Shown: positions 7,801-63,688 of the stretch, one piece after another
Layout of the letters: each line of letters starts with the position of its first letter
How positions within the stretch are numbered: position 1 is the stretch's first letter
Origin: Jaminaea rosea
Taxonomy: Eukaryota; Basidiomycota; Exobasidiomycetes; Microstromatales
DNA: 64,000 nt
Assembly (NCBI RefSeq): GCF_003144245.1
Contig: NW_020289976.1
Location: 186,001-250,000, forward strand
Reading direction: 5' to 3'
Program-made: the position numbers and the translations under genes
Notes under the pieces: generated by a model
Told to the model about the DNA's origin: nothing
Seen by the model: only the letters and a program-made list of their open reading frames with translations
Database searches by the model: none

Positions 7801-10800
7801 TTACTTGCCCTTGGCGAGGACGCGCATGGGCATGTCGACGAAGATGTCGTCGGCAGGGTGGCGGTACAGAGGCGCCTTGAGACGCTTCTGGTCGAGGTGG
7901 TGTCCGACGAAGCCGATGGAGCGACCAATGACGAAGAGACCGTTGAGAGTGCCGATCTGAATGGCCTCGTCGGCCTCTTCACGGGTGAAGGCACCCGAGT
8001 CGCGCAGCAGGTCGACAAAGCAGACTGCCAGGGCGCCGTCGACGTTGAGGATGAGGGAGTCCTTCTTCGCCGTCGTGACGGCCTGGACAGCCAGAGCGTA
8101 GTCGAGCATGGAGTGGGCGGGGAACTCCTTGCGCACGTGCTCGACGAGGACCTGAACACGGAAGTCCGGGTTAGTTACTGACTTGACCTTGTGGCCAATA
8201 CCAGGGATGAGCTTGTTGCCGCGACGCATCTCGTCGACGAACTCGCGAGGGGTGAGCCCACGGTCCTTGGCCTGCGAGAAGGTCTTGGCAGCGTCGTCCA
8301 AGGCACCACCGAAGCGGTCACCAATGGTGAGGAGACCAGAGACGAGCGACGAGACGAGGTCCTTGCCCGCACGCGAGGTGATGATCGTGTTCATCGCGCC
8401 GGAGACGGCAGGTCCGTGGTCGGCCGTGAGCATGAGAGCCATCTCGATGAACTTGGTGCAGTAAGCGGGGAGACGACGCTTGAACCAGAGGAGCGAGAGA
8501 ACGCCACCAATGCCCATGCCGGACTCGAAGACCTCGGAGATCTTGACGCCCGAGTACATGAGCTCGGAGCCACGCTCGTCGGAGATGGTCGAGATGAAGG
8601 CGGCAGGCTTGCGGATCATGCCAAGCTCCTGAGCCCACTTGTAGTCGATGGGGATGGCCGGGGGAGGGCGCTCAGGCTTGGGGGCGATGGTGCCCTGCGA
8701 GACGAGCTTGGCGTAGACTTCGCGGAGGAGCATGGGGAGCTCCTCGAACGTGTCGGGGACAAGGAAGCCAGCAGCCTTCATGGCGGCGTTCTTGGCCGAG
8801 GCAGTCTCGAGGTCAGAGTTGGCCATGGAGCCGGCGTGGCCGAACTGGACGTCGGTGGTGAACATCTTAGCGCACGTGCCGATGGCCCAGGCGACGATGG
8901 GCTTGGTGATGATGCCCTGCTTGACAGCGTCGATGACGCGGTACTCCTCGACACCACCGACCTCACCGAGCAAGACGAGAAGCTTGCAGTTGGGGTCCGC
9001 CTGGTAGCGCAGGAGGTGGTCGATGAACGTCGTCGACGGGTAGCGGTCACCGCCAATGGCGATACCCTCGTAGGTACCGTTTGTCGTGAGGGAGAGGATG
9101 TTGTTGAGCTCGTTGGACATACCACCGGACTTGGATACGTAGCCGACGGAGCCAGCACGGTAGAGCTTCGACGAGAGGATGTTGTCCATCATACCGCCAG
9201 AGTTACCGATACGGAAGCAGCCAGGCTTGATACCACCGACGGTAGCGGGGCCGATGATGAGGACACCAGCGCGAGCGGCACGGTGGAGGATCTCACGAGC
9301 GAAGCGCTCGGGCACACCCTCGGCGATGAGGGCGAGTGCGCGGATCTGAGGGTACTGGAGGATCTCGAGGGTCGACTGGTAGACGGAGCGGCTCGAAGCA
9401 AAGTTGACAATGACGTCGGCGTCGGGATGCTTGGCGACGGCCTCCTTGACGCTAGTGTAGACGGGAAGGAGAGTCTCCTTGGTTCCCCAGTAGAACTTCT
9501 GGATGTGGTGGCCGCCGAAGGGGTAGATCATGGCAGCGACCGAGGGCTGAGCACGGCCGCACGAGAAGTCAAAGTCGAGCATGCCCTGAATAGCACGGGG
9601 CTGGAGACCGAAGACGAGAGAGCGAGTGTTCTCGTCAAAGGGCATGTGAGCGGGTCGGCCAGAGCCACCAGCTGCGGCGGGGAAGTGGACGATCTGGTCC
9701 TGGGGCTGGGCGCGGTTACCAGTGACGGGGTCGATGGTGCCGGTGCTAGCCTCGGCCGGAGTGCTGCCGTTGGGCGCAGCTGCCGGCGTGACGGCGCCAG
9801 AGGGAACCTCGCGCTGGGCGTTGGCAAGGTTGATGTCCTCGGACGTCTTGAGGCCAAGAGCGAGGGGCACAATGTCGGTGATGTGCGTGTCGGGGCCAAA
9901 GACTTGGATTTCGACGCCGAGGTCCTCACCGAGGAGGCGCATCATACGCAGACCCTCCTGGTAGTTGGGGCCACCACGGCGGACGAAGATGCGAACACCG
10001 TACTTTGCGAGAGCGACCTTGTACTCCTTGAGAGCGCGAATGATACCCTTGAAGGTAGCAGCGACGTTGGTGAAGTTGGCGATACCACCACCGATGATGA
10101 GGAGCTTGCCCTCCGGGTTGACTTCGCCGCGGGTCATGAGGTCGAGGAGAGTCTTGGCGTACTCGTACGTCTGACCCTCAGTGGGGGCACCAGAGTACTC
10201 TCCGTAGTTGGCCAGCTCGTGAGCGAAGCCGTGGGCGGCGATGGCATCTGAGTAGACGACCGAGGCACCACCACCGGCCACCATGGTCCAGATGCGACCA
10301 GTGGGGTTGAGGACGGTGAGCTTGAGGGAAGCACCTGTTCCAGAGTCAAGCTTGGCGATCCAGGCCTCTTCTTTGGTCAGGTCACGGCCAAAGGGAGCGG
10401 GCCAGTACATGGGCGGTCCACGGTCACCACCCTTGAGCGTGGGGACGGCGGCTGCGGCTGCGCCTTCGACGTAAACGCTGGGGTCACGGGCAATGGACCA
10501 CTTGGGCCCGCAAAGGTAGTCTGCCGTCTGGTCGAGCTTGGCTGCCATGTCAAGGTATGTGATGAGGCCATTGTCCATGACGACGAGGGGATTGATCTCG
10601 AGGTAGGCAAAGTGCAGGTCGACATAGACGGAGTATAGGCGGACGAGGAAGTCGGTGAGGATCTCCTTCTTGGCGGCGGGCACGTTGGTGAGAAGCGTCG
10701 AGGTCCATTGCTCGCGAGACGGGAATGGCTCTGCTGGGTCTGCTGGGATGAGGAGCTTGAGAGCCTTAGCATCGACGTCTCCGACGTCAACACCGCCCTC

Positions 10801-11412
10801 GTGTGTGAAGAGGATGTAGTCGCCTTCACGAGCTGAGTTGATGCAGACGTAAAACTCGGTCTCAGCGGGGTGAGGGACGAAAGGCTCGACGATGAAGTTG
10901 CTCAGAGTGCCCGTAACAGCCTCGACCTGCGTGTGCGCGTGCGCGGCAGGGGAGTAGAGAGTGTCAGCTCGTGCTCAAGGTGAGGGGCGCAGCTCGCCGC
11001 ACCTTCTGGGGCTTCCCTGCTCGCTCGACGATCCACTGCTTTGCATCCTCCCAATCAGCATTGAGCTTGAGGAGGCCGGCCTTTCCTCTCCTCTTGATGA
11101 GCTGGTCAGGCTTGGCGACGAGCTTGGTCGTCTTGACCCACGAGGGCATCGACTCATCGCCGGTGATGGTGTTGGTTGCCGCATCCCAGGCAACTTGAGC
11201 GACCTTGGGCGCCGGTGCGACAAAGGACGACGAAGCCTCGATGGAAGGGTGAGCAGCCGGGGAGCGAGGCAGCCAGTAGTTGACGAGCAACTTGGCGTCG
11301 AGCTCGCGAATCGCTGGCGGCGTGGGGAGCGTGAGTGATGGTGTTAGTGTGCGGGGTCCCATGTCACGACTACAACTTGGCTCTCAGTTTGCTACCCACG
11401 CTTCGACGACAT
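7801..11412 (-). CDS. ATP-citrate synthase (ATP-citrate lyase), fused single-chain form, three exons
   Basis: Exons 11412..11400, 11313..11003 and 10926..7801 (introns 86 and 76 nt) give 1149 residues, the length of animal-type fused ACLY. The tiny first exon encodes MSSK plus one base. Visible parts: N-terminal [14 protein letters not shown] and [19 protein letters not shown] (ATP-grasp region), [11 protein letters not shown] (metal and nucleotide site), a Pro/Ala/Thr-rich linker near residues 490-530, the CoA-ligase part with [12 protein letters not shown] carrying the phospho-histidine, and a citrate-synthase-like C-terminus with [19 protein letters not shown] and GIGHKVKS. The enzyme makes cytosolic acetyl-CoA from citrate for lipid and sterol synthesis. 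Codon use is strongly biased, as in highly expressed genes, which creates very long antisense open frames. Confidence 0.96.
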
Positions 11413-28229: not shown

Positions 28230-29510
28230 TCATCTTGCTTTATCCATAGTCATCGTCCTCCTAGCCAGACCCACCCTCTCGATCTCCATCATCATGGCGA
28301 GGAGCTCGTTTGGGTCCCGCAGGGGCGAGTTGTCCGTCAAAATAGTGAAGGGAACCCTGACCCACTCGTGAGACCCCACTGGCAGGATCTCAAACGTCCA
28401 CCACGCCTTGCACCTCCCGCCCACAAAGTTGTCCTCCCCATCATCCTGCGTCCATACCCTGCGGACCCACGCAGGCACCGACTCGCCCTCTTGCATGTGC
28501 GAGATGTCTCGCAGCAGTTTGGCCTTTGTTGGTGAGATGTTCACGTGCGTCTTCGGCCCCAGCCACACACCGCCAGTCGAAGAGACCGTGATGCCGCCCA
28601 GTACTCCCCTCTTGTACTTGGGCGGCGCAAGCTGCTCGAGCGCGGGCCCCAACTCCTCTGCCTCTGCTTCCTCCTGGGCCAGGCAATCCTTCTCGGCCTG
28701 CCTCCTCGCGGCTTGCTCCTCAGCGGGCCTCGTTGACAGTACCAGCTCCATGAAGTGGAGCGAGGCGCCAGAGAGACCGTCCGCAGCATTTCCGTCGACG
28801 GTCCAGAGAGCCGTCTTCTTGCTGGTGGAGGCGAGGATCCTGAGGCCGCCGTAGAGGTGCCTTTGGGCCCTCGTCATTGCTCGGACGCTCGACTCCTTCG
28901 ATGCCGCCCGCAACCCGTCACTCTCCACCACGAGCCGCCACACCTCGTCCTCCTCCGACTCTTCCCCCAGCTCCTCGACTACCCGCAGGGGAGGGCAGAC
29001 CTGCAGCCACCTCCTCCACGACCCAGAAGAGCGGCAAACGGCCTGGTAGAGGAGGGTGTTGCCTGCCAAGCGACGACGCAGGATCCCCAGCCATTGCTCC
29101 GTTGCCTCTTCCAGGAGCTCCTCCCAGAGCCTGACCGCGCCTCCCTGCTCCCTCGCACTCTGAAGCGCTCGCTGGCAGCTCAGCATCTGGTAGCGGGCGC
29201 AGCGATAGTCGGCATTGGTGATGACATGCCAGTCGAGGGGCTTCGTGGGTCCCTCGAGGCAAGGCGTGGCTGCGGGGGAAGGGCGGCAGCATCAGTACGC
29301 GCGCTGGCTCATGCTAGTCGATAGCGCCGCGTCACACTCACCGTTGCAGCCTTTGACGCCGTCATCCAGCCCACCGAGCGCGTAGTATCGCCCCCACTCC
29401 AGCCAGCCATTCTTGCCCTTCACCTTCCGAGCATCGCCATCACCTTTGCCGCCTCCTCGTTGCTCTCACTTCCGGCTCCACTAAAAGGAAGGACTCAATT
29501 CGCTCGCAGC
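28230..29510 (-). CDS. GIY-family copy 5: decayed GIY exon end plus intact C-terminal domain exon
   Basis: The second exon (29269..28230, CCCGCAG acceptor) is open for 345 codons and is the longest C-terminal unit. It starts CLEGPTKPLDWHVI and continues with WLGILRRRLAGNTLLYQAV, SSVRAMTRAQRHLYGGLRI, LSTRPAEEQAARRQ and WLGPKTHVNISPTKAKLL. Upstream, only the tail of a GIY exon remains (about 29500-29340: EEAAKVMAML, then GWLEWGRYYALGGLDDGVKG), with at least one frame break, ending at a GTGAGT donor directly after a conserved GCN motif. The GIY-YIG core itself is missing. I do not recognise the C-terminal domain. The exon could be expressed from a truncated gene or be a relic. Confidence 0.5.
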
Positions 29511-29589
29511 CGGAGGGGACGTGGGGATGTAGTGATCAGGTTGGCGGACCACTGCTGCTCTGAGATCATGTCAAGGGGAGCCTGGATTA

Positions 29590-31496
29590 CTTCTGCGACC
29601 CGAACGGCAGGACCTCTTTGCCGGTGATGCGAATCTTGCCCATGACTTCTTTTCGGGATCGACTCCGGGCTTAAGGGTCTCCAATGCCTCTGCAGCAAGG
29701 CAATCTTTATACGCCTCGTCGCGAGCATCTTGCTCCTCCTTCGGCCTCGTCGAAAGTGCGAGCTCCATCATCCGTCGAGGAGCACCGGTCAATGAGCCGT
29801 CAGGGTTGCCGTCGAAGGTCCAAGTCATTGCTTCGCCTCCTGCAGTTGCGACGATCCTGATGCCTCCGAAGCGGTGTCGAATTGCCATCGACATCCCGCG
29901 CACGCTCGACTCGGTCGACGCGATCCCTTTCCCGTCGTCTTCGACGCTGAGCACCCACACCACCATACCAAGCCCCTGCGTCAGCGCTATTGGCGGGTGC
30001 ATGCCCAACCACATCTTGGCTTGACCCGACGAGGCAAGCATGAGCAGGTAGAGGAGCCTGCCGCTGCCGAAGAGTTGCAGCAAGATGGCTAGCCATTGCT
30101 CCTTCGCGTCGACGATGACCCCCTCCAGCATCCTTGCCTCGTTGCTGCGTCCACATGCCTGCGCTACGCCCAGGGCTCGCTGGTTCCTGCGCATGTGGCA
30201 CCAAGCGGCATGGTACTCCGGTTTGAGGATGGTCTGGCCCTCGTGCGGCTTCTCCGGCGCTTCCAGGCAAGGCGTAGCTGACGAGCGCGATGGACATCGG
30301 GCGTCAGTCTGCGCTCGCTTCTCTGGTCTGAGTGGTCTCTCTATGCGCGCGACGGCGTGTAGCCCGCCTCCACTGAGCTTCCGTTTCTCTTTCATCCGAC
30401 CTTTCCCCACGAATTGCGCACAGTCTTGTACTCACCATTGCACCCGATCACGCTGTCTTTCAGCGCATTTCCCAACCCATACTCCTCCCCCAAGTCCAGC
30501 CACGCCTGCTTCCTCGACGAAGCTGTCCATGATTCCGCAAAACACACTCTCCAGCATTGCCATCGTGTTGCTTGCCTCCGCCTCGCTTTGTCCCTCTCGC
30601 GGCTTTCACTAAAGAAAAAGTTTGAAGTGCTGGCAGCCAGCGAGAGTCTGATAGAGGAGAGTCGGCGAGGGAGAATCGCTACTGGCGCTATCGACAATCT
30701 AGATGAGGTGGGAGGCCAGACGCGAGGGGACGTAGCTCGATTTGCCGACGTAAATGGCTGCGAGAATTGCTGCCAGGAAGCCGACGGCGAGGTAGATGCC
30801 ACCTGTTTTGGAGTCTACCCAGCAACCAGAAGGGAGCTCCACGGCCGACCAAGGCAAGTCTAGCGCAACCACAGGATCGGGAAGGCCATCCCAGAAGGCT
30901 TGGGCCCGGATGTCGACGCCGTTGTCTAGCGCCTCCATCAGCTTGAGACCTGCCGGCTCCAGCTGCACGTCCAGCAAGGCTTTCCACTCTTGGTTGCTGA
31001 TGTCCCTCATCCACTGAGGGACGTTCAACCCCGTCTAATCCTCGCCAAAACTCCCTGAGCGAAGTCTGTCTGGCACAGCACGCCTCGGTGGAAGTGAGAG
31101 GTGTCTTCGGTGACACTCTCGCAGCGTGGTGGACCCCTCCCAAGCAGGACCTACTCTGCCGTCTGGGAAGACCTTCCTATCGCCGAAGGGTCCCTTCTTG
31201 ATGATGGCCCCATCCTCGCCTTAACCAATCTCCTCGTAGTCCTCCTCGAGGTCACTGTCCTCATCCTCATCGTCCATCTCCTCTTCCTCAGCGTCTTGCA
31301 GAGATGACTCCGCCGCGAGTGTCAAGGTGGCATCATCCTCTTCGCTTCCTGGGTCCATCTCGTCGCCCTTGAGGAGCTTGGGTGAGAGGGCGTAGTGCTG
31401 AGCACGATGGGGTGCAGATGCGCTGAGCTCGGCGGCAGCTGAGCCGGGTGGCGAGGAGCTTTGAGGTCGCTTTGTATCGCCTACGAAGGCGGGCAT
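29590..31496 (-). pseudogene. GIY-family copy 4: GIY-YIG-like exon plus C-terminal exon, broken
   Basis: All family parts are present in order. Start MPAFVGDTKRP, an acidic stretch (LQDAEEEEMDDEDEDSD, 31310-31230), the motif KKGPFGDRKVFPDG, then WKALLDVQLEPAGLKL, LPSGCWV, GIYLAVGFLAAIL, IYVGKSSYVPSRLASH and, after the donor at about 30435, the second exon from 30277 (CLEAPEKPHEGQT, SSVRGMSMAIRHRFGG, LSTRPKEEQDARDE). Four in-frame stops interrupt the first exon (about 31220, 31040, 30700 and 30610), a frame step occurs near 30520, and the second exon shifts frame near 29640. The unit cannot make a full product by normal splicing. It shows the complete two-exon architecture and so defines the family. 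Confidence 0.6.
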
Positions 31497-31517
31497 GTTG
31501 CGTGTAAGCGTAGGTCA

Positions 31518-32860
31518 CTAGGCTTGACGGGCGGGCGCTGGACGGCTCGACCCTGAGCGGCGTGTGCTGTTGGTCCCTCGGCCGTCAGGTTTCAGCGCCG
31601 GACGCGGAGTGGATGGAAACATAGGGTAAGTGTGTACGAAGTTGGCTTCGCCCTCAATGGCGTCCTCTGGGCGCCTGCAAAGAAGTCGGGCGAGTGTCGA
31701 GCTCCTAGGCTCCATGTTGCCGACCTCACGGAGCTTTCGCAACTTTGACGGGGTGATGACGAAGGAGTTGGCCGGTCCCAGGTAGAGGCTCCCGCTGGCC
31801 GTCAAGCTTAGCTTGCCCAAGATTGCCCTCTGATACTCGGGCGCCAGCTGAAGGAAACCAGGGTGTTTGAGGAGGGGGTCCGACTGCTCCTCTGCGACAC
31901 AGGCATCGTGCGCCTGGTGTCGTGCCCTTTGCTCCTCCTCCGGTCGCGTTGAGAGCACGAGGTCCATCAACCGGCGAGCAGCGCCCGAGAGCTCTGAGTC
32001 GGGCTTGCCCTCGAGTGTCCATGGCATCGACTTCCCACTGGTATCCGTTGCGACGATCTTCAGGTCGGCAAAGAGGTACCTCTCTGCCCTCGAGATGCCT
32101 CGCACGCTTGACCCGTTTGATGCTGCCCCCCTCCCAAGGGACTCAGCGCCGAGCAACCACTTGCCCGGTCGCAGCCCATCACTAAGTGCCTTTGGAGGGC
32201 GCAGCTCCAGCCATCGCTTCGGCCGGCCGGCTTCTTGCCCATAAATGACCTGGTACAGCAGCGTCTTGGCTGCGAAGCGGCGTCGAAGGATCTCCAGCCA
32301 GTCTTCCCTGGCCGTTTCGTGGATCCACTGCCAGAGTTGAGACTTGGCAGCCGTCGCAGACAGGGCCTCTTGCTGGCTCTTGCGCATCAGATATTGAGCG
32401 CAGCCGTAGTCGCCGTTGAGGATTGGGCTGTGCTTGCCGGGCGTGTGCGGCGCCTCGAGGCAAGAGAGAGAGAGATCATTGTATTCCCTTCTGGAGCGTA
32501 CGTGGGCTCATGCGGGTGATCTCGAGGCAAGAAGTCCCTGCGAGAATAGGAAGGAGGGCGTAGCATCAGTACGCACGCCAAGTCACTTTCTCGATAGCCT
32601 TCACACTCACCATTGCACCCTTTCACGCCATCGTCGAGCCCTCCCACTCCGCATGCGCAGATGTTCTGCTGCCATTGCACCTTTCTGGTGAAGCTGACCA
32701 TCGCGTTGTAGAAGACTCCCTCTAACATGGCCATCAACTTGGCCTCCTCCTCTTCCTCTCCCATCTCTCGAGCCGGACTTGGCCTCCAGAGCAAGAAGAA
32801 CTTGAAGTGGTCGCAGTTGGCGAGGACCGAGTAGAGCAGAGTGCTGAATGGAAGTTGGCG
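31518..32860 (-). pseudogene. GIY-family copy 3: truncated GIY exon joined to C-terminal domain exon with a small insertion
   Basis: The left-hand exon begins only at TLLYSVLANCDHFKFFLLW (about 32845), just after an acceptor-like CATTCAG. It runs through EEEEEAKLMAMLEGVFY and GLDDGVKGCN to a GTGAGT donor at about 32611; the acidic start and GIY-YIG core are absent. After an acceptor at about 32536, CLE is followed by a 55-nt insertion flanked by a 12-nt direct repeat. The C-terminal frame then runs to 31518 (MRKSQQEAL, WLEILRRRFAAKTLLY, SSVRGISRAERYLFADL, LSTRPEEEQRARHQAH, YLGPANSFVITPSKLRKL). Its C-terminal domain is well kept, so decay is uneven. Possibly copy 2 once spliced to this second exon. 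Confidence 0.5.
32454..32532. repeat. 12-bp direct repeats flanking a 55-bp insertion
   Basis: The sequence CTCGAGGCAAGA occurs at 32454-32465 and again at 32521-32532. The 55 bases between them are absent from the equivalent place in copies 4 and 5, where the same conserved CLE codons run straight on. The insert starts with a GA dinucleotide run. It could be a target-site duplication around a tiny insertion or a local slippage duplication. Confidence 0.6.
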
Positions 32861-33019
32861 TTTGTCGCAGGCTCAGAGGATGGCAAGTCGTCGTTGTCGG
32901 CGCCGATGGACAGAACGATGAGGTAGCGAGGCCTCTGCCTTCGTCCGAGTCGTCGATGGACTGTCCTTCGTCGAGGTGCACGCGCGCCAGGCTGCAATGC
33001 TCCGCGGTCTGCAACTCAC

Positions 33020-33980
33020 TATTGCAGCCGATCACCTCATCTCTCAACCAGCCAAGGCTGTACTTGCGCTCAAAGGCAAGCCACTTCTCCTTCCTCGTGT
33101 ACGAGGCGAAGAGGCGGCAGAATATGCACTCGAGCATTGCCATCTTCCTGGCCGCTCCCTCTTCCCTCTCGTCCGCCGACAGACTCCAGAGAAGGAGAAA
33201 TTTGAAGTGATCACAGCGAGAGATGACGTCGTAGACCAGTTGCTTAGCGGTCTGGCCTTGAGACGCCTTCATGATCTTGAGAAGGTGTGAGGGATGACGC
33301 GAGGGAATTGAGCCGGTCTTGCCGACGAAGATGGCCTTGAGAAGTTCTCTCAGGAAGCCAACCAGCAAATAAATCCCTCCAGTCTTGGTATTCTGCCAGA
33401 CGCCTGAGGGGAGTTCCTGCATGCTGGTCCAGGGCAGATCCGTGGCGAGGAGAGGCTCTGGCATGGCGTCTCAGAATGCCCGTGGATGAACGTCCTCGCC
33501 GTCGTCGAGGGCTGCCATCAGCCTCACCCCGGCCGGTGCCAGCTGGATCCCCTTGACCGCTTCCCACTCTTCCTCCGTCACCCCCTTCATCCACTCCCAC
33601 GCGTTGAACCCCGCCGTCCCCGGCATCGACACCTCATCAGCCAGGTCTTGCTGGCAGAGGACTGCTCGTACGAAGGAGGGAGTGCCTGGCTCGACGTTGG
33701 CGAACCTGGGCTCACCGCGGGAGCAGAGGAAGTATTCGGAGCGGCCATCTTTGTGGACCCTCTTGTCGCCGTAGGGCCCCTTCTTGACCTTGGAACCGTC
33801 AACGTCTTCTGGCTCCTCTTCTTCATACTCCGAGTCGCTTTCATCCTCTTCTTCAATCTTCTCCTCCTCCTCGCCCGGGATGCTGTTAGTGGCCAGCTCC
33901 GCAAGAGCGGAAGCTAGCGACTGCCCGCCGGCGAGTTCAGCTGCTGTTGTTGGTGGTTGAGTTGGGGCGTTGATGGACAT
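33020..33980 (-). pseudogene. GIY-family copy 2: best-preserved GIY-YIG-like exon, one in-frame stop
   Basis: ATG 33980 opens about 320 codons in one frame to a GTGAGT donor (33019). Order: Ala/Thr-rich start, acidic stretch (EEEEKIEEEDESDSEYEEEE), KKGPYGDKRVHKDGR, WEWMKGVTEEEWEAV, then LPSGVWQNTKTGGIYLLVG, IFVGKTGSIPSRHPSH, CDHFKFLLLW, MAMLECIF and GCN at the splice. The G-I-Y, [Y/F]-V-G-K and R-x3-H spacing resembles GIY-YIG nucleases; other catalytic residues are not clearly seen. One TGA (33473..33471) replaces the Trp found in copies 1 and 4 (AFWD). Otherwise intact, so the break is recent or a sequencing error. No second exon follows directly; copy 3 lies next downstream. Confidence 0.55.
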
Positions 33981-34335
33981 TGTTCGATCACCTGTGACAA
34001 TGCGACGGCAACGCCTCGTCTCTTGCTTATGATGGACAGCGAGGAGAGAAGAAGTGCCGCAACGGGAGACATCCGATCTGGATCGTTCAATGCTGAGAAC
34101 CGTGACTGCAGGATATTGCGGCGGAGTGTAGACGCAAGATCCTTGGACGTTGGCTTGGCGACGGCAATCCCCTCCTGAGCTTGAAGCGGCGTTTGCTGAG
34201 CACAAGAGACGGGTAAAGAGGAGCGTGAGCGTGTAATACAGCAACCGTGAGTCTCTCAGTCTCTCTGAGTTCGCGAGCACGTACCAGCCAGACAGCCACA
34301 TTGTCACTTCTCTCCAGAGTTCAATTAGCGTGGGC

Positions 34336-35350
34336 TCAGAGTGAAGAGGTGGACGGGGCAGAGATCGCGCTGCTGCTGGTGCCGCCGCAGAGGTCGAGCT
34401 CCCCGTCAGGAGTCGAGCCTTCGGTGAAGTCCTTTTGAGGTGCGCTCGCCATCGTCTTGGCGTCCTTCTCCTCGCTCTCTCCAGATGGCTTCCAAATCCA
34501 AAGAAGAAAGAACTTGAAGTGATCGCACCCAGTAAGTGTAGAGTAGAAGAATGTGCGAGAGTCGTGGATGGCCTGAAGGATAGAAATGATGTGGTTGAGA
34601 AGGCGAGCCGGAATCCAGCCGGTCTTGCCTGTGTAGATCGCCGCGAGGAGGGCATTGAGGAAGCCCAGGCAAAGATAGATGCCTCTCGTGAGCTCGCTAC
34701 GGAAGAGACCGGAAGGCAGCTCCTCCAGTGAGACTGAGGCGGGCAGGTCGGCCGCAACGAGAGAGCTGGGCAAGGCGTCCCAAAAGGCTTGCGAATGCAG
34801 CTCGGTGGTGCCTGCTTGGAGGGCCGCGAAGAGTCTGACCGCAGCCTCCTCCAGCTCTACCTCCTTGAGCGCCTACCACTCCTCGCCACTCACTCCCTCC
34901 ATCCACCCCGGCACACTGAATCCCACCATGCCCTCATCCGGCACCCTCTGCGCAAAGTCCCTTTGGCAGTCGACGGCCCTGCTCAAGTATCTGTCTTCGG
35001 GCTCCACGTTGTCGAAGCGACCTTGTCCTCTGCAGTGGTGGAGGAACTCCGTGGTGCCGTCCGGCCAGATCTTCTTCTTGCCGTACGTTCGACTGTGGAT
35101 GACGGATCCATCGTTGATCTCCTCCTCCTCTCCCTCTTCCTCTTCCTCTTCGTCCCCTTGCTCGACGTCTTGCAGGGCAAGCTCAGCAAGAGCCGCTGTC
35201 AGCGTATGTTCGCCGCCATCGGACTGGCTGTCGCCAGCTTGAGACGAGACTGCATCGCTACGTCGGGGGTTTGGTGGTTGGACGAGAAGGCGGTGCCATC
35301 GCGTTTGGCATTGGCGATGGTAGGGTGCTTGCGTGAGGGTCGACGGGTAT
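34336..35350 (-). pseudogene. GIY-family copy 1: GIY-YIG-like exon, one in-frame stop and an altered tail
   Basis: The family frame is readable from about 35270 (EHTLTAALAELALQDVE, then a long Glu run, RTYGKKKIWPDG, GRFDNVEPEDRYLSRAV, WMEGVSGEEW) to 34336. After EEW a TAG (34875..34873) replaces the Glu codon of copy 2, then the same frame continues: AFWDALPSSLVAADLP, LPSGLFRSELTRGIYLCLG, IYTGKTGWIPARLLNH, CDHFKFFLLW. The usual MAMLE...GCN splice end is replaced by a Ser/Thr-rich tail that stops at 34336, so this copy lacks the second exon. No ATG equivalent to copy 2 is in frame. Probably a pseudogene. Confidence 0.55.
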
Positions 35351-36142: not shown

Positions 36143-37750
36143 CTATAGTAGTATTATGCAAGAGAATGAAAATGGGGGATAGGAGAGGGTTGCGTGGATG
36201 ACGGTGCCTCGGGGATGAATCAAGAGCCAGTGGGCGTCGGCACGTCGGCGGCATTGCTCCTTGTCGTTGAAGCCACGAGAGCTGACGGCAGGGATGGAAA
36301 GCAGGATGCAGGGTGAGTACGAGGCTTCATGGTAGTTCACAAAGCGCGACCACGTACCAGCCTGCGTGCTCTTGCCGTCCCAGCGGATCGAAGGGCCCTG
36401 CGCAAGGATGAGAGGGGCAGAGGAGGAGGAGGAAGAGGAGGAGGAGGATGCCGTGGTTTCACTGCTGCCGCTGCTGCCGTCGTTAGGGCTCCCGTGGGCA
36501 GCAGTCGTGCCCGAGGGGCCAGAGACGGCGCTGCTGCTGCCACTGGCCTGATCGTCCCCCATTGCAGACTTGCAAATCCCCGGGAAGGGCCCGTCGTGAG
36601 ACCGGTGCCAGTCGTCTCGGACGTTGCTGACCCGCAAGTAGGCCTCGGGGCTGAAGGAGGAGGCAGAATGTGAGTTGCAAGTCAGTGCCGAGATGCTGCG
36701 TGAGGAAATAGTACCCACCGGCCGGCTTTCGGACAGGGGATGCGCTGCCTCTCGGTGTGCACCACCATGTGCCTACTCAGGAGCATTTCGCTCTTGAGCA
36801 CCTTGCCGCTGAAGGATTGCAGCGAGGTGGGTGCGAGTGGAGAGCGGGCGAGGAATGAGCTGCGGGTCAGAGGGGCCTCGATAGAGCACATCTGGTGCCT
36901 ACTCACCAGCTGGGGTGGAGGGCACTCGACCGCCTCGCGCTTCCTCTCGTGACGGTCCTTGACGTGCTTCTTGGCGTAGCCCTTTGTCGTGAAGCTCGAC
37001 GAGCTGACATGCGCAGAAGGGGTACGTCAGCGGAGCGAAGTGAGAAAGAGATGCTTTGCTTTTGAGCTCACCAAGACTCGACCGGGCAGAGGAAGCGCCC
37101 ATCCTTTTCAACGATCTTGTACTTCTCGGGTCTAGCATCGGACAATAAGGCGGGCGTGGGGAGGCAGCGAAGGTGATGAGGGAAGTCAGCATATGGTGTG
37201 CCTACTAGCTCGCATCTGCGTGAAAACCAACTCACTTGCAGCTGTGCCTGTTCAGAGCCGCTTGAGTCGAGAAATTCTTCTCGCTGCGGATACAAATCGT
37301 GGCTTAACATGTCAGACGAGAAAGACACCATGGCTGGCGTTGAACTCACCACTCATCGCAGGTGTGCATTACCCCCTCCAAGGCCCTCTTGTGGTTTGTG
37401 ACGTGCCTGCTGCGCGAGGCTGACGTCGGGTACCTCTTGTTGCTGCAACGATCAGATCACGGTGTTGGTGAGCTCTCGCGTATGGGAGCCATCCTCGTAC
37501 GAGACCTACTCACCAGCCTGGCACAGTGCCCCAATACCTTTCGTTCTCTTTGCCGTCTCGATGCTTCTTCATGTGAGCCTCCTACGTGCCCACCGTGAGA
37601 AAAGTCTGCTCACCGCGTGATGGAGCACAGCAGAGATTGTGAGCGGAAGGCAATGGTCGTACTGTACTACGAGCATTAAGGGTGCACTCACCAGCCCGGC
37701 CATTCGCACTTGCGGCGCTTGATGTACGGGGTGTTCTGATTCGTTGGCAT
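36143..37750 (-). pseudogene. C2H2 zinc-finger module C, about nine exons, decayed
   Basis: Exons: 37750..37692 (start MPTNQNTPY, RRKCEWPGC), about 37605..37514, 37442..37350, 37283..37236, 37131..37072, 37003..36907, 36808..36719, 36650..36358 and 36281..36143. Fingers include NKRYPTSASRSRHVTNH, EKNFSTQAALNRH, SSSFTTKGYAKKHVKDRH and GKVLKSEMLLSRHMVVH. The eighth exon holds PEAYLRVSNV, H..H and a Ser-rich stretch; the last encodes FNDKEQCRRRADAH and a hydrophobic end. Exons 2, 6 and 8 are not multiples of three, exon 2 has an in-frame TAG, and exon 7 ends CG instead of TG, changing the ligand Cys to Arg. A DNA-binding role is likely for the family; this copy is probably dead. Confidence 0.6.
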
Positions 37751-38679: not shown

Positions 38680-38790
38680 ATCCTCTTTCTCCACGTTGTC
38701 GCAGTGTGCTTGCCCCCTCTTGAGGAGGACGAAGTCTGCTCTGCCGAGGTTGAAGACGTTCTTGTTGCCGAATGGACCCTTGTTCGCCAA
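38680..38790 (-). pseudogene. Fragment like the N-terminal motif of the GIY family, inside the zinc-finger locus
   Basis: On the minus strand the frame reads ANKGPFGNKNVFNLGRADF, LLKRGQAHCDNVEKEDG. This lines up with KKGPYGDKRVHKDGRSEYF, LCSRGEPRFANVEPG in GIY copy 2 and with RTYGKKKIWPDG, GRFDNVEPED in copy 1: shared GP[FY]G[ND]K, GR, LxxRG and NVE at the same spacing. It lies between the module B linker exon and module D, more than 3 kb from the nearest full copy. It may be a displaced piece, or the two families may share this motif. Confidence 0.5.
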
Positions 38791-42443: not shown

Positions 42444-43917
42444 CTTGATCGTGGCGCTGGCGGGAGGGACTGGTATCGTGCGCGCTCAGAGACGAAGACC
42501 TATGATCGGTGTTGCGTGTCGAGGTGTCGTGACCAGGGTGCTTGACCGTACGCTCGGAGCGCACCGCGAGCTTATGGAGCGTAGCTGTGAGGTGGGTCGC
42601 GCAGGCCACGGTGACTGGGACCAGGCGTAGACGCAGGGTATCCGGAGGTTGGTGCGTGGCACGAGTGGAGATGTGTGGCGAGGTGACCGTGACGATGACG
42701 TGGCGCGCACGGCACCGACGCTAGCAAGACTATGACAGGTCAGAGAGCTTGAGGTGGCGTGCTGAAGCCAGAGTGAGAGGCCGGTGGATGTTGCGAGATG
42801 GGCGAGCGAGCTTGAGAGGAGTTGAGGTTGAGTGATGACTGAGCATGAGCGAAGTGATGGCGAGCGTGACTTGGAGGGATTGCTGAGCTCTTGGTGCAGA
42901 GGTTGGAAGTCCTCGTTACGGGCACTGAGCCGACAGCTGTCGCGGGAGCCGGTGCTGAGCTCGTGCGCGCTTGTTGACTGAAGTTCCACTGCTCGACGAT
43001 GATGGTGGTGGCGGCGGCGGCGGCGGCAGTGGCGGTGGCGTGGGGGTACAGGGTATATGCGTGGGGAGGGAGGGGGCAGAGAGGGGGCAGGAAGGGGGCA
43101 GGAGGGGCCATCGGTAGACCAGGCGTGTCGGGCTTGTTTTGTTGGTGAGAGCGTTTGGGTCTAGGTGGCTTCCACATCGAGGTCGTGCGGCGGCAGGCGA
43201 AGTGGCAGTGATGGATAGGAGGTCAAGATGCGCTGGCGCCAGCTGGCAGAGATGGGCTGTGTCCTTGACTCATCACAGGAACGCTCGCGAACGGCGCAGT
43301 CAGGCACGGCCGCGAGCCGCTCCGCACCGCACCGCCGTCGTGATTAGCCACAGGACTCAGCCGCCGTGATGAGCTTGCGTAATGGATCAGCCGCCGTGAT
43401 TAGGAGTTGGGCTCGACTGTGGTCACCTCTCGATCGCTGTGGTGATGATGAGTGGCCATCGTTGAGGAGCGCGACGCGCGACCGGCAAGATCTCACAGAG
43501 AGCCGAGCAGGAGGCGTCCGACAGCCGGCCTTGATCTACTCCCAAGGGCCCAACCCAAGGGGTCAAAGATTGGGTGCCTCCTCTCGCAGGCGGGTGAAAT
43601 GAGACTGAATTTTGCCCTCTAACAGTAGCCTGAGTCTGCTTTCGTCTGTAGCTCCTGAATGCATGTTAGCTACTTCGTCAAGCCTTGAACGCCTCCTGCG
43701 AGGAAGCGAGGCGCGAGGTGCGAGACGTGAGGCGCGACAACTCAAGGCCCAGGTGGGCCTGGCCGTGCGTCGTCGCCCCGCGCTTGACGTCACAGCGACG
43801 AGACCCGACCCGGCTCCTCCACCCAAAACCCCCACGTTCAGTCTCATCTCCCCTTTCCCCATTGATCCACTCCAACACTCTCGCGCGCACACACACACAC
43901 ACGCACGCACGCCCACC
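42444..43917. other. Gene-poor stretch right of the zinc-finger locus and COA3 5' flank
   Basis: No gene recognised in 1.5 kb. Minus-strand frames at 42486-42989 and 42740-43177 are open and Ser/Pro-rich, the second with a GCC-repeat Ala run, but have no domain and no clear splice link to module A; a 5' exon of the zinc-finger gene remains possible. An AC/GC dinucleotide run (43886-43913) directly precedes the COA3 start codon. Confidence 0.4.
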
Positions 43918-45300
43918 ATGAGCGCTCCTCAACCTCCCAAAGACGGTCCTTCTCAGACTGGCCGCCCCATGGCCCCTGGCAAGCCTGGACATGGCTCTTC
44001 TAGCTATCACCCTGGCGGCTTTGGAGTGTCTGAAGGTCTGAAGCGCGCCCGCGAGCCGTATCGCATGGGAAACGCTGTCATGGGCCTCGGCTTGGTCGCC
44101 TTTGTGGGCGGCGTCTACTGGTGGTCGATTCACAAGGTCAAGCAGGACGACTTCTCCGACCTCGCAGACGTGCGCAAGGACAACAACGCCCAAGCCGTTC
44201 AGGCGCTGCAGGACGCAAAGGACAAGGCGGGCGAGGGAGCCACCAAAGTGAGCGAGGCGGCTCAGGCTGGGTGGCAGGCTGCCAAGGCCGGTACGCAGGA
44301 GGGTGCGGGCAGGACTGAGAAGGAGGCCAACAAGGGATGGTTCGCTGCGAAGGACAAGGCGGACGAGGCGGGCAAGGAGGCAAAGTCCATCTTGTCGCAG
44401 GCTCAAGACAAGGCCAGTGATGCCGCGCGTGATGCCAAGTCCTCGCTCTTCTCTGCAAAGGACAAGGCCGAGACTGAGGCCAAGCACGCGGAGCAGCAGG
44501 CCAAGTCCGGGTGGTTCAGCGCAAAAGACAAGGCCGACGATGCGGCGAAGCAGGCCGAGCAGCACGCGAAATCTGGCTGGTTCCAGACAAAGGACAAGGC
44601 AGAGGACGCTGCGCAGGATGCCAAGTCGTCGTGGTTCAGCGCAAAGAATGAAGCTCAGCGCGAGGCCGACAAGGCAGGCGAGCAGGCCAAGCAAGGATGG
44701 TTCGCCGCAAAGGACAAGGCCGACGACGCTGCAAAGGAGGCCAAGTCGAGCTGGTTCAGCGCAAAGGACGAGGCTCAGCGCGAAGCCAACAAGGCGGGTG
44801 AGCAGGTCAAGTCGTCGTGGTTCAGCGCCAAGTCCTCCGCAGACGACGCTGCTCGCCAGGCCGAGTCTCGCGCCAAGTCTGGTTGGTTCACGGCAAAGGA
44901 CAAGGCGGACGAGGCGGGCAAGGAGGCCAAACAGAACTGGTTCCAAGCCCGCGACGCAGCAGCTGCCGAGGCCTCGTACGCTGCCAAGGAGGCGCAGAGA
45001 CGCTGGGATGCCATGAAGTCTGGCGCGGAATCCGCAAAGAACACCGTCGAGAATGAGGCGCAACGTGGATGGTCCAACGTCAAGGAGCAGGGGCAGCGTG
45101 CCAGTGACGAGGCGCAGCGTACCTACCGCTCGGCGGCTCAGTCGGTCGAGAACGCGGGCAACCGCGCGAGGGAAGCGGGGCGTGATGCAGAGGCTAGGCT
45201 GGAGCAGACGCGTGAGAACCACAACAGGTGGACCGAATGGTGGGCTCAGGAGGCCAATGACCGCCGCCTCGCTTTGCTCAGGCTGCGTGACGGCAAGTAG
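43918..45300 (+). CDS. COA3-like cytochrome oxidase assembly domain with a long LEA-like repeat tail
   Basis: 460 residues from ATG 43918. Residues 1-45 are Pro/Gly-rich; LKRAREPYRMGNAV leads into one transmembrane helix (about 51-69, GLGLVAFVGGVYWWSI) and then HKVKQDDFSDLADV. That is the COA3 (CCDC56) signature: pre-TM Arg/Pro, a VY motif at the end of the helix and KVKQDDFxDl after it. COA3 is an inner mitochondrial membrane factor that stabilises and regulates Cox1 translation. From residue 95 to about 430 follow some 14 repeats built on AKSxWFSAKDKADDAAKEA, an amphipathic pattern like group-3 LEA or apolipophorin repeats. COA3 proteins are normally about 80-110 residues, so the tail is exceptional. 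No intron or stop separates the two parts. Confidence 0.82.
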   Translation: MSAPQPPKDGPSQTGRPMAPGKPGHGSSSYHPGGFGVSEGLKRAREPYRMGNAVMGLGLVAFVGGVYWWSIHKVKQDDFSDLADVRKDNNAQAVQALQDAKDKAGEGATKVSEAAQAGWQAAKAGTQEGAGRTEKEANKGWFAAKDKADEAGKEAKSILSQAQDKASDAARDAKSSLFSAKDKAETEAKHAEQQAKSGWFSAKDKADDAAKQAEQHAKSGWFQTKDKAEDAAQDAKSSWFSAKNEAQREADKAGEQAKQGWFAAKDKADDAAKEAKSSWFSAKDEAQREANKAGEQVKSSWFSAKSSADDAARQAESRAKSGWFTAKDKADEAGKEAKQNWFQARDAAAAEASYAAKEAQRRWDAMKSGAESAKNTVENEAQRGWSNVKEQGQRASDEAQRTYRSAAQSVENAGNRAREAGRDAEARLEQTRENHNRWTEWWAQEANDRRLALLRLRDGK

Positions 45301-60441: not shown

Positions 60442-63390
60442 CTAAAGCGGTCCCAATGGGCTCGTGTACGGTGAATGACCCATTCCCTCGCCCCGAAAGA
60501 AAGCTCGCCTTCCCACGCCATCCCCGTCAAAGTGAATAATAGAGTAGCGCTGTTCTGCCTGAGGACTTCGCTGGGCGTCACGCAAGGCCTGCTGGCCCGT
60601 CCTCCTGGAAAAGGATGACGGGATAGGCGCAAGCTGGGCGGCATCATCCCCACCTTCTTTGCCTTTGATCGCGGTTTCGTCATTTGAGTCTCCCGCGCGC
60701 CTGACATTGAAGCCAGCCTCAAAGGAGGGAGCGGGCCTCTTGCGCCTGTACACCGGCCTCGGCGTCGAAGCCAGCGAGGTCGGGTCGAAGTCGGGGATGG
60801 CGTATTCCCAATCGTCGTCCTCTTCTTCCTCTTTGCTAGCGGATAGGATCGGCTCGTCAGGCATGGCGAACCAACTCATCAGCGCGCCGGGAGCGGAGAG
60901 GGCGTAGCTTGTGAATCCAGAGATGCCCGAGATGGCGGACGTGACCGAGGTGGCGAGGAGGTTACGCGAACCCGTGGCCAGAGTCGTTGCAGTCTCCCAG
61001 GATGAGGAGGCTGCGCTAGGTAGGGCAGTGGTCGAGGCAGACGCAGCCGCAGTGAAGTACGCGAGGAAGTGAGAGGGGAGGGCGGGAATGAGGGATAGAA
61101 CGCCGTTACCATTGCTGCTGGCGGCAGGAGCGGCGCCTTCAGAGGTACCCTTTATTGCCTCCTCTTCTTGCTCCTCAGGTCCGCTGGTGCCCAGTAACGA
61201 GGCGCCGATCCTAGATCCACCAGCAAGAAATTCGATCAGCACCGTCCCGCCCTGCAGGTACTTCCTCGCAGGTAGTCGGATCTCTTGCGCATCTCTCGCT
61301 GCTGGATCCAAGCTGAGGTCATCTTCGCCCTCGTCCTTCTCCTCAATGGGCGTGGCCACAGCCGAGGGCGACGTTCCGGGGAGAGCGACGAGATGCGTGT
61401 AGGCGCCGTCGATAGGCAAGTGGCCGGCCTCGATTGCCTCACGCCATACGCGGTCCTCTGCTGACACGAAGTCCGTCGTGCACATCAGGGCGCGGGGGAC
61501 ATGCCCGTGTAGGAGGAGCTTGTGGGTCTCGGCGGCTAGAGTGTCGTCCGCATTCGTTGCGGGGGTCGTCTCCTGCGGTGAAAGGTCCTCGAGTGTGGCT
61601 ATCGAGTCGCGCTGAGCTGGACGAGGCAAAGTCTTCTCGGTGTTTTTGACCTGCTCTTTGGCTTTTGCCTCTCGCTCAGCAGCCTCCTTTGCCTCCCTAA
61701 TCGCAGCCTCCTTCGCCTCAGCCTCAGCGATCTTCCTGTCCTCCTTCTCCTGCTTTTTGGCTGCCCTCTTCTTCTCCCCCTCCCTACCACCCCTCGCCTT
61801 GCGCCAAAGCTGGACAGCTGGCCCGCCCACGGTAGACCCAGACGCATCGGATACCGCTCCATCATCGTCTTCTCCGTCGTCTCGTAGAAGTTCGGGACGA
61901 TGGGAAGCGATCCCGTGCTTGGCGGCTTTGCGCGTCAACGAAGTGAACCCGTCCTGCTGAGCAGCGCCATTGCGCAGCTCGACCTCGTCGACCTCATCGC
62001 CCTCCTCGCTCGAGTCAGCATCGCTGATCTCCTCTTGCGCGGAGAAAAAGTTGGCGGACGAGGCTACACTGTCTCTAATTGCCTCCTCTTGATCCTTTGC
62101 CGGGATCGGGGGAGGAGCAAATGTATCCGCCCCAAGCTCTGAGCCCTTGCGGCTAGGGGAGCGAAGCACGTCCGGATCGCGGTAGATGTCTGCTGCACGA
62201 AGCACCGAAGGCTTTGGTGTAGGCGCCGTTGATGATGAGATGGTGCCGTGCGAGGAGGCAGAGGAGGTTGTGGAGAGCTCGACATTGTGTGCAACGACGG
62301 CTACGATTGCGCCGGTCGCGTCATCGACTGCTACGAGAGAGTGGCGAAGGGAGCTCGGTCCCGGTTGAGTCGGGGAGGGAGTGCGTGGGACAGCGCGAAG
62401 AGCTTCGCCAACTTCATCAGCGTCTGCGAGGGGCTCTTCCGGCGAGCTGGTGTGGCGTAGGGACTCGGGTTTGACAGGAACCGCTGCAGGCGTGGCTGGC
62501 AGGGGCGACGATGGTAGCGGCTGCGGCTGCTGGTGCTGTGGCTGCTGCTCTTCGCTGTCTTGCTGCTCTTTGGCCACGACGTTGGTGATGTCCCCGAGAG
62601 GCATACGTCGAGGAGGGCTGCCTTCGGTGTCGCTTTTCTTTGCCGGCGGAGTAGGTAGAGGCCGACGAGCCTTGGCCGGAGCCTTGAGCTCCTCTGGCTT
62701 GGGCGCGGGCGCAGGTGGCGACGTAGTGGAGCCATTGACCTCGATTACCGTCTTCTCGGCCGATGGCAAAGGATAATGTGCCAAGACATCCCTTAGTCCT
62801 CCCACCAAGTGCGGTTGGGCATCGAAAAGCCACAGAGTCCAGATAGCCCGCTTTCCCATCCCTGCCATTTCAGCCCGATACCTTCCTTCAGCTCCGGGCT
62901 CGCTCACATCTTCGAAGAACCAAAAGCTGCCTCCATACTGTCCATCCTCTCCTGCCCCAAGTCCGACAAAAGTGTCGCGCGGTACTGTATTCTCCGGCAT
63001 TGCCTGCCCTTCTTCTCGAGCAGAGGTGGTGTACGATCGAAAGGGGAGAACTTGCCGACGTTGTGCACCATAGACTTGCGCGAGAGCATTATAAGGCTGC
63101 TCGATTGTGAGGACGAGGCTTCCACCGCCATTATCGTGATGGTCCGAGTCGCTGCTGAGCGGGATGTCAGGGACGGCGCACAGTTGGAGCTTCCCCTGCC
63201 AATCTTGCAGGACTACTCCGATTGTCTCTGCGTGTGCCTGATAGATCGATCCTGGTCCCAGATGGTCGCGTGGAATGTGACCATTGACGCGATTGGGCGG
63301 GTGAGAGGGAGGAATTGATTTGACCAGGCGAGCTGCGTGATGATTGAAGAGAACGCGCGTCTCGCGAGCAGGAGATGGCAGATGGCTCAT
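60442..63390 (-). CDS. Large unknown protein with structured N-terminus and low-complexity centre
   Basis: A single exon of 982 residues from ATG 63390 (MSHLPSPARETRVLFNHHAA). I do not recognise the family. The first 230 residues look globular, with alternating strands (LQLCAVPDIPLS, SFWFFEDVSEPGAEGRYRAEM, AIWTLWLFDAQPHLVGGL). The centre (about 240-560) is Pro/Ser/Glu-rich. A Lys/Glu/Ala-rich stretch near 570-630 (KKQEKEDRKIAEAEAKEA) suggests a coiled coil. The C-terminal third is again ordered (VPRALMCTTDFVSAEDRVW, GTVLIEFLAGGSRIGASLL) and has an Ala/Ser/Thr-rich segment ending LSAPGALMSWFAMP. No signal peptide is visible. It is divergent from the carboxylesterase, about 300 bp apart. Confidence 0.68.
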   Translation of the reverse strand: MSHLPSPARETRVLFNHHAARLVKSIPPSHPPNRVNGHIPRDHLGPGSIYQAHAETIGVVLQDWQGKLQLCAVPDIPLSSDSDHHDNGGGSLVLTIEQPYNALAQVYGAQRRQVLPFRSYTTSAREEGQAMPENTVPRDTFVGLGAGEDGQYGGSFWFFEDVSEPGAEGRYRAEMAGMGKRAIWTLWLFDAQPHLVGGLRDVLAHYPLPSAEKTVIEVNGSTTSPPAPAPKPEELKAPAKARRPLPTPPAKKSDTEGSPPRRMPLGDITNVVAKEQQDSEEQQPQHQQPQPLPSSPLPATPAAVPVKPESLRHTSSPEEPLADADEVGEALRAVPRTPSPTQPGPSSLRHSLVAVDDATGAIVAVVAHNVELSTTSSASSHGTISSSTAPTPKPSVLRAADIYRDPDVLRSPSRKGSELGADTFAPPPIPAKDQEEAIRDSVASSANFFSAQEEISDADSSEEGDEVDEVELRNGAAQQDGFTSLTRKAAKHGIASHRPELLRDDGEDDDGAVSDASGSTVGGPAVQLWRKARGGREGEKKRAAKKQEKEDRKIAEAEAKEAAIREAKEAAEREAKAKEQVKNTEKTLPRPAQRDSIATLEDLSPQETTPATNADDTLAAETHKLLLHGHVPRALMCTTDFVSAEDRVWREAIEAGHLPIDGAYTHLVALPGTSPSAVATPIEEKDEGEDDLSLDPAARDAQEIRLPARKYLQGGTVLIEFLAGGSRIGASLLGTSGPEEQEEEAIKGTSEGAAPAASSNGNGVLSLIPALPSHFLAYFTAAASASTTALPSAASSSWETATTLATGSRNLLATSVTSAISGISGFTSYALSAPGALMSWFAMPDEPILSASKEEEEDDDWEYAIPDFDPTSLASTPRPVYRRKRPAPSFEAGFNVRRAGDSNDETAIKGKEGGDDAAQLAPIPSSFSRRTGQQALRDAQRSPQAEQRYSIIHFDGDGVGRRAFFRGEGMGHSPYTSPLGPL

Positions 63391-63688
63391 CGCTGCGGTG
63401 AGCGTCGATTGATGGGATTTGAATGCGGCAAGAAAGGAATAGAGAATGATAGACACCCATCGGAGGTCATGGCGCCCATCGCTGCCCCCTCAGGCGCCCT
63501 GACGGTGGGATAGGGGCCTTGGAAAGGAAAGCAAAGAGAACAGGGGCCAAAAAAGTGGCACGGACCCATTGACTTTGACGCCACGCGAGCGACGGCAAAA
63601 GGACAGATGCCGCCGGCTCGATCATCGTCGATTTACCCCGCACTTGGCGTCGACCAGACTCCACATCCACTTCTTCAACTCGACCAGC

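Follow-up and report, generated by a model that had tools for sequence, protein, structure and literature searches.

A decayed tandem array of a putative GIY-YIG-like gene in the basidiomycete Jaminaea rosea

Structure and decay of the array

Within the window (the whole 64,000-nucleotide stretch analyzed, with a GC content of 60%), five homologous units, A to E, lie on the minus strand between 28.2 and 35.3 kb. A sixth copy, the N-terminal relic F, had been absent from the first-pass annotation. The features are the following.

34783..35200 (-): unit A, N-terminal region with the acidic stretch; a single in-frame stop; tblastn/HMM match to the N-region of unit B
34447..34779 (-): unit A, GIY-YIG-like core; stops at MA, without GCN or exon 2; 46% identical to core B (E 1e-26)
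33474..33980 (-): unit B, start codon, acidic stretch and N-terminal region with KKGPYGDK; open frame, then an in-frame stop
33021..33470 (-): unit B, GIY-YIG-like core, complete as far as GCN; 150-residue open frame; compared with GIY-YIG profiles by hhalign
33014..33019 (-): unit B, splice donor GTGAGT downstream of GCN; tblastn finds no exon 2 between 32462 and 33019
32612..32839 (-): unit C, 3' half of the core with CDHFKFFLLW, MAMLE, and GCN; E 1e-13 to core B
32538..32610 (-): unit C, intron of 73 nt; donor 32610, acceptor 32538
31599..32462 (-): unit C, exon-2 domain counted from the second CLE; 41% identical to unit E (E 3e-55)
30894..31514 (-): unit D, N-terminal region with the acidic stretch; disrupted by stops and frame changes
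30510..30890 (-): unit D, GIY-YIG-like core interrupted by in-frame stops, its tail to GCN lying in another frame; 45% identical to core B (E 2e-31)
30278..30435 (-): unit D, intron of 158 nt; donor 30435, acceptor 30278
29667..30269 (-): unit D, exon-2 domain with broken C-terminal part; 43% identical to unit E (E 2e-41)
29343..29494 (-): unit E, core tail; MAML remnant, E 0.053; WLEWGRYYALGGLDDGVKGCN, E 0.004
29270..29341 (-): unit E, intron of 72 nt; donor 29341, acceptor read by eye
28233..29261 (-): unit E, exon-2 domain, at 343 residues the longest open copy; open frame; tblastn
38689..38781 (-): relic F, N-terminal KGPFGNK segment; E 7e-5, or 2.4e-6 with the profile

In unit C, a first copy of CLE lies 67 nt upstream of the second. 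The core tail of unit E is a weak match by itself, backed by its place before the intron.

Amino acid identity among the units is 43 to 60% (ten aligned pairs of parts), and tblastn of unit against unit gave E values of 3e-55 for exon 2 of E and C, 2e-31 for cores B and D, 1e-26 for B and A, and 1e-13 for B and C, with the short core tail of unit E reaching 0.004 only. Judged from these alignments, the homology of A to E is far above chance, and the gene family is real. As hmmsearch E values are circular for units inside the profile, the only independent one is that of relic F, obtained with a profile built without it.

None of the five units is intact, as every one carries in-frame stops, frame changes, or lost parts. 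The acidic start is found in units A, B, and D only, and exon 2 in C, D, and E only. Units A and B lack exon 2, unit C lacks the N terminus and the first half of the core, and unit E consists of a core tail and exon 2. Unit D alone combines the acidic start with the core, the intron, and the CLE exon, damaged and spread across several frames and stops. The first-pass annotation had described five units sharing the same order of motifs; homologous units and motifs do exist, but the order is a composite, complete only in the damaged unit D. The GP[FY]GDK motif is exact only in unit B and reads GPFGDR in D, RTYGKK in A, and GPFGNK in relic F, while ELPSG, GIY, (Y/F)xG-K, and R-x3-H occur in units A, B, and D rather than in all five. 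CDHFKFFLLW is kept as CDHFKF(F/L)LLW in A, B, and C but is CQHFKLFL in D. MAMLE is present in B, C, and D, but unit E has MAML followed by a frame change; GCN is found in B, C, D, and E and CLE in C, D, and E, so neither is common to all five. The earlier description makes the five units look more uniform than they are.

The joined layout proposed at the same time, an intron after GCN followed by an exon starting at CLE, is supported. In units C, D, and E alike, GCN is followed by a phase-1 intron whose acceptor lies 8 nt ahead of a CLE codon, which supports a single joined gene. From the intron signals and the junction, the transcript would be spliced in the cell.

The units also retain traces of coding history. 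With stop codons left out, the second codon position was the most conserved and the third the least in all ten pairs compared, and dN/dS was 0.22 to 0.42 in nine of the ten, although dS values approach saturation, the one for the pair core D-C being infinite. Both patterns indicate purifying selection in the past. GC content at third codon positions is 65 to 86% in the array units. Poor assembly does not seem to be the cause of the lesions, since the single-polypeptide ATP-citrate lyase gene in the same window stays open over 1057 codons, which is the evidence of one gene. The single-polypeptide form of this enzyme also makes the window look basidiomycete-like.

The GIY-YIG-like core

The GIY-YIG superfamily is characterized by N-terminal GIY and YIG motifs, a central Arg, and a C-terminal Glu, and a C-terminal Asn marks the UvrC/homing lineage and is absent in Slx1, according to PMC1564403. 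Units A, B, and D keep GIY, and their second motif reads YTG, FVG, or YVG, the FVG of unit B being a departure from Tyr to Phe. In these three units, which are all those that keep the region, an Arg follows at +8 after the Gly of the second motif and a His at +4 after that, the same spacing as in phage T4 I-TevI. The Glu of MAMLE is found in B, C, and D, though the hhalign matches do not align it, and the GCN of B, C, D, and E sits by eye at the place of the I-TevI GYN, outside the hhalign alignment. A regular expression of the motifs, written after they had been seen, found no match in 400,000 shuffled versions of core B.

A four-row core profile was compared by hhalign with six GIY-YIG groups assigned by eye. 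The highest score, 26.3, was obtained with the I-TevI type (15 rows, two identical; L019 and L020, listed like L018, left out), and none of 300 shuffles (best, 18.5) or of another 120 (best, 22.0) reached it. Against the same group, the reversed core scored 15.0, the N-terminal part 8.4, and exon 2 14.8. The bacterial homing type, in which L142 and L150 look UvrC-like, gave 22.8, reached by 0/120 column shuffles (best, 17.6). UvrC, with L153 a doubtful member, gave 22.9 over 17 columns, reached by none of 120 shuffles with a narrow margin (best, 21.6). The I-TevI-type and homing-type alignments place GIY on GIY and the second motif, Arg, and His in one register, and the UvrC alignment covers only the stretch from the second motif to His, in the same register. 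There was no match to the yhbQ-like group (14.9, reached by 6/120 shuffles), to T5orf172 (12.3, 22/120; members L168 and L169 look yhbQ-like), or to Seg (8.5, 104/120 and 271/300), the last set being drawn from five T4 rows and 25 of 80 loci, with only sequences of >50 residues kept and L005 left out. From the further GIY-YIG rows, L154 and L156 (one stop) of 30 loci and L171, L172, and L173 of 11 were omitted. Accepted groups scored 15.6 to 44.6 against each other in 11 of 15 pairs; the three higher scores of the core are within the range of distant accepted groups, and those with yhbQ-like, T5orf172, and Seg are below it.

The array has no convincing family match in Pfam, NCBIfam, or PDB. 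At E values up to 10, no GIY-YIG model was matched in Pfam (seven pieces; neither PF01541 nor the LEM-3 model PF22945) or in NCBIfam (five pieces). PHROGs returned, for five pieces, four unnamed families of unknown function with E values of at least 0.019 and up to 0.31, two of which cover the GIY-YIG stretch of unit A. Core B found nothing in PDB, and the core profile had two matches there, neither of them GIY-YIG; the better one, 5a5c_A ("LRRTM"; E 0.0019), consisted of eight short repeat matches and was rejected as repeat driven. AlphaFold modeled the core as nearly all helix without sheet, at a confidence (pLDDT 42) too low to use. No relative was found, either, in bacterial and archaeal contigs (32 pattern matches to core B), viral contigs (3 to core B and 21 to exon 2), and phages (two matches to core B, at E 3 and 7), and searches for LEM-3/COG3680 members matched in 0/4 and 0/195 genomes.

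The first-pass assignment to GIY-YIG, made together with a proposal for profile-profile comparison, is partly supported: three of six groups score above all shuffles with the motifs in order, and the other three fail. Membership of the core in GIY-YIG has moderate support from its sequence, short of proof.

The exon-2 domain

The second domain, of about 270 to 340 residues, had been described as having no nameable match. Pfam gives none that convinces, but there is a weak, partial lead to KIN17. A profile of the three copies matched 7abh_7 (E 0.0079) and 2v1n_A (E 0.017), and hhalign against a segment of human KIN17, the only KIN17 sequence compared, scored 38.6, reached by none of 200 shuffles (best, 19.0). 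The second half of exon 2 did not match it (9.6, reached by 111/200). The match at 0.0079 is weakened because the false match to 5a5c_A reached a lower E value. The KIN17 Pfam model PF10357 matched none of the three copies at E 10, though it matched KIN17 itself. The AlphaFold model of exon 2 (pLDDT 59) is too uncertain to rest on; its Foldseek search against PDB, run to E 10, gave 86 matches, none of them at 0.001, which we took as noise, and KIN17 was absent among the best 50 of the 86.

Origin of the array and alternative readings

We favor, with modest confidence, a pseudogenized tandem array of one unfamiliar nuclear fungal gene for a GIY-YIG-like nuclease. The ancestral protein would have had an acidic, probably disordered N terminus, the GP[FY]GDK region, and a GIY-YIG-type core ending in GCN, and in the gene a phase-1 spliceosomal intron after GCN would have led to the second domain. 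The core may cut or nick DNA through the GIY tyrosine, the Tyr or Phe of the second motif, Arg, His, and Glu, while the second domain, as a putative DNA-binding module, and the acidic tail might place it on DNA or partners. The copies would have arisen by duplication, diverged under purifying selection, and then decayed at the locus.

The core could instead belong to a lineage-specific, perhaps all-helical family whose motifs mimic GIY-YIG by chance, as the low-confidence helical model, the lack of GIY-YIG matches in libraries and PDB, and the three failing groups would allow; yet no shuffle reached the same-register matches to three groups, and the motif residues are ordered and kept wherever the region survives, so we consider this somewhat unlikely. 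Exon 2 might also be a KIN17-like winged helix, making the protein a host factor in nuclear DNA transactions that carries a nuclease core. The profile matches and an hhalign score above every shuffle speak for it, and 53 to 66 residues around LRRRF do resemble the KIN17 winged-helix region. These residues are just a small, mostly helical part, however, with the second half unmatched and both PF10357 and the best Foldseek matches silent, and we regard the reading as very doubtful. It is compatible with the other readings.

A selfish, homing-type nuclear endonuclease, whose core cuts a target recognized by exon 2 and whose past copies form a graveyard, is unlikely in our view, and overlaps with the decayed GIY-YIG-like array that we prefer. 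Among the profiles, that of the I-TevI-type homing nucleases matches best, and GIY, (Y/F)xG, Arg, His, Glu, and GxN follow in the same order as in T4 I-TevI. Copies are tandem and decayed, and Ustilago maydis is reported to carry a nuclear relic of a GIY-YIG homing nuclease (PMC7593156). Unlike I-TevI, the array gene has a longer spacing from GIY to the second motif, an acidic N terminus, a long second exon, and its own spliceosomal-type intron. The intron and the GC-rich third positions argue against a recent mitochondrial origin, and Pfam detects in exon 2 neither a NUMOD nor any other DNA-binding domain, although homing nucleases without NUMODs exist as an unorthodox group (PMC1564403). The U. 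maydis gene, UMAG_11064, is likewise a GIY-YIG gene that decayed in the nuclear genome of a basidiomycete, but it is described as a single recent insertion with mitochondrial origin and codon usage (PMC7593156), whereas the array is multicopy and GC rich and carries both an intron of its own and the marks of old selection. With the UvrC domain, the array shares the IYxGK...R stretch, but the GIY motif lies outside that alignment, and Pfam identifies no UvrC partner domain. Within the listings and passages that it covered, our literature search found no description of such a family, the closest being PMC7593156; a passage of PMC4469406 deals with mitochondrial homing nucleases only.

Should the core prove to be GIY-YIG, the superfamily would gain a divergent branch from eukaryotic nuclei, joined to a partner domain that is unfamiliar. 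In fungal nuclei, GIY-YIG is known mainly from Slx1 and T5orf172/MUG113-type proteins. It is a quite improbable, speculative extension that the array represents an undescribed family of nuclear fungal nucleases, with an acidic N terminus, a divergent GIY-YIG core, and a KIN17-like winged-helix reader, spread by selfishness or conflict, left here as a tandem graveyard, and still active elsewhere as intact copies. Long selection followed by tandem decay is what a genome conflict or a fast-turnover gene would be expected to leave, and intact homologs would make this idea testable.

Layout and gene structure of the tandem family

Five damaged copies of one gene family (units A to E, from high to low coordinates between 28.2 and 35.3 kb) were detected with fragments of units B, C, and E as tblastn queries on the window and with HMMs built from aligned pieces. 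They lie on the minus strand. Below, the N-region is the conserved N-terminal part around GP[FY]GDK, the core is the GIY-YIG-like region ending at GCN, and exon 2 is the second domain, which follows an intron.

Features of the tandem family and one other gene of the window
Unit A, minus strand: acidic stretch, N-region with a stop, core ending at MA
Unit B, minus strand: start codon, acidic stretch, N-region, stop, full 150-residue core to GCN plus splice donor
Unit C, minus strand: begins mid-core, then GCN, intron, exon 2
Unit D, minus strand: acidic stretch, N-region, core, intron, exon 2, every part damaged
Unit E, minus strand: core tail, GCN, intron, longest exon 2 (343 residues)
38689-38781, minus strand: relic F, a sixth remnant, from the N-terminal part (KGPFGNK), some 3.4 kb past the end of the reported region, found by tblastn and HMM
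7804-10974, minus strand: fused ATP-citrate lyase

Exon 2 is absent after the splice donor of unit B. The first-pass annotation had described five units sharing one motif order; that order is whole in unit D, but only there, and for the five together it is a composite. Taken by itself, the MAML remnant of unit E is a weak match (HMM E value of 0.053), but its position fits the predicted order. Further HMM matches outside the region (E values of at least 0.09) and two tblastn matches (0.69 and 0.93) were taken as chance.

In units B, C, D, and E, GCN is followed by one base and a GTGAGT donor (33019, 32610, 30435, and 29341, respectively), and exon 2 of units C, D, and E starts exactly 8 nt upstream of a CLE codon. 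The acceptors lie at 32538 (C), 30278 (D), and 29270 (E, located by eye), with introns of 73, 158, and 72 nt, and those of C and E have the branch-like stretch GCGTACTGATGCT in common. Unit C has two copies of the CLE stretch at a spacing of 67 nt (32462-32538); its open frame of exon 2 runs on from the second copy and is thus out of register with the acceptor. Judged by these predicted splice signals, the core exon and exon 2 form one gene of two exons.

Affinities of the core and of exon 2

Features of the GIY-YIG superfamily are set out in PMC1564403. We compared the core by hhalign with I-TevI-type (15 rows), UvrC (7), bacterial homing-type (16), yhbQ-like (5), T5orf172 (8), and Seg profiles. 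The I-TevI type scored 26.3 across 58 columns, placing the core GIY over GIY and FVG...R...H over YVG...R...H; no column shuffle reached this score in two runs (0/300 and 0/120), and the reversed core, the N part, and exon 2 gave 15.0, 8.4, and 14.8. The bacterial homing type aligned in the same register (22.8, 54 columns, 0/120 shuffles), and UvrC scored 22.9 (0/120, best shuffle 21.6) on an alignment of just 17 columns that begins at the second motif and stops at the His. There was no match to the yhbQ-like (14.9, reached by 6/120 shuffles), T5orf172 (12.3, 22/120), or Seg (8.5, 104/120) profiles. Since accepted GIY-YIG groups score 15.6 to 44.6 against each other in 11 of 15 pairs (at least 72 in the other four), the three matching profiles score as genuine but remote relatives do, and the other three fall below that range. 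Summed over the six groups, the core reached 107.7 and the best shuffle 88.0. Two motif-plus-spacing regular expressions, composed after the motif had been seen, matched none of 400,000 shuffles of the unit B core.

Searches of Pfam (seven pieces) and NCBIfam (five pieces) returned no GIY-YIG at E values up to 10, the PDB searches did not find it, and PHROGs (five pieces) gave four unnamed families (0.019 to 0.31). The AlphaFold model of the core is nearly all helical, at very low confidence. In our own judgment, it is fairly likely that the core belongs to GIY-YIG.

Exon 2 had no match in Pfam or NCBIfam and one unnamed family in PHROGs (0.019). A three-copy exon-2 profile found KIN17 in the PDB around LRRRF (0.0079 and 0.017), and a human KIN17 segment scored 38.6 by hhalign (0/200 shuffles). 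The second half of the KIN17 winged helix did not match (9.6, 111/200 shuffles), nor did the KIN17 Pfam model, and the exon-2 structural model (pLDDT of 59) had no fold match at an E value of 0.001. The apparent KIN17 likeness is a lead only.

Past selection and genomic setting

In all 10 pairwise comparisons, the third codon position was the least and the second the most conserved. In nine pairs dS was finite and NG86 dN/dS was 0.22 to 0.42, values that do not give the strength of selection because dS (1.27 to 1.65) is near saturation; the remaining pair, the cores of D and C compared over 48 codons, had an infinite dS. This shows that the family was once under purifying selection.

The window has a GC content of 60% and contains no N. 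The ATP-citrate lyase frame is uninterrupted over 1,057 codons, which suggests, from this one gene, that the lesions of the family region are not a general assembly error. Two stretches of the lyase match solved structures, with the best match over residues 190 to 1051. Other ordinary eukaryotic genes carry RasGEF, TBCC, Coa3, and Ku C-terminal-like domains or encode MoaE. The Coa3_cc match lies inside a plus-strand frame at 43609-45297, and tandem repeats of 66 and 120 bp occupy 44455-44852, where the unit translated by eye gives alanine/lysine-rich repeats that we take to be LEA-like in look. A short minus-strand frame at 36685-37026 resembles the C2H2 zinc-finger model zf-H2C2_2 at a sub-threshold E value of 0.002, and a minus-strand open frame of 1,015 codons (60445-63489) has no Pfam match at 0.001.

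No relatives were found in phages (two matches were chance), in viral contigs, or, with the core as sole query, in bacterial and archaeal contigs. Our literature searches listed nothing that we recognized as this gene family, which does not prove it undescribed. PMC7593156 describes a nuclear homing gene of the GIY-YIG kind, now decayed, in Ustilago maydis; like the present family, with its probable GIY-YIG core, that gene is nuclear and decayed, but it differs in origin and copy number. Units A to E are a real tandem family, once selected and now pseudogenized, with a core that is probably GIY-YIG and a second, unassigned domain, and the locus probably makes no full-length working protein. 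The interest of the array is as a lead toward intact homologs.
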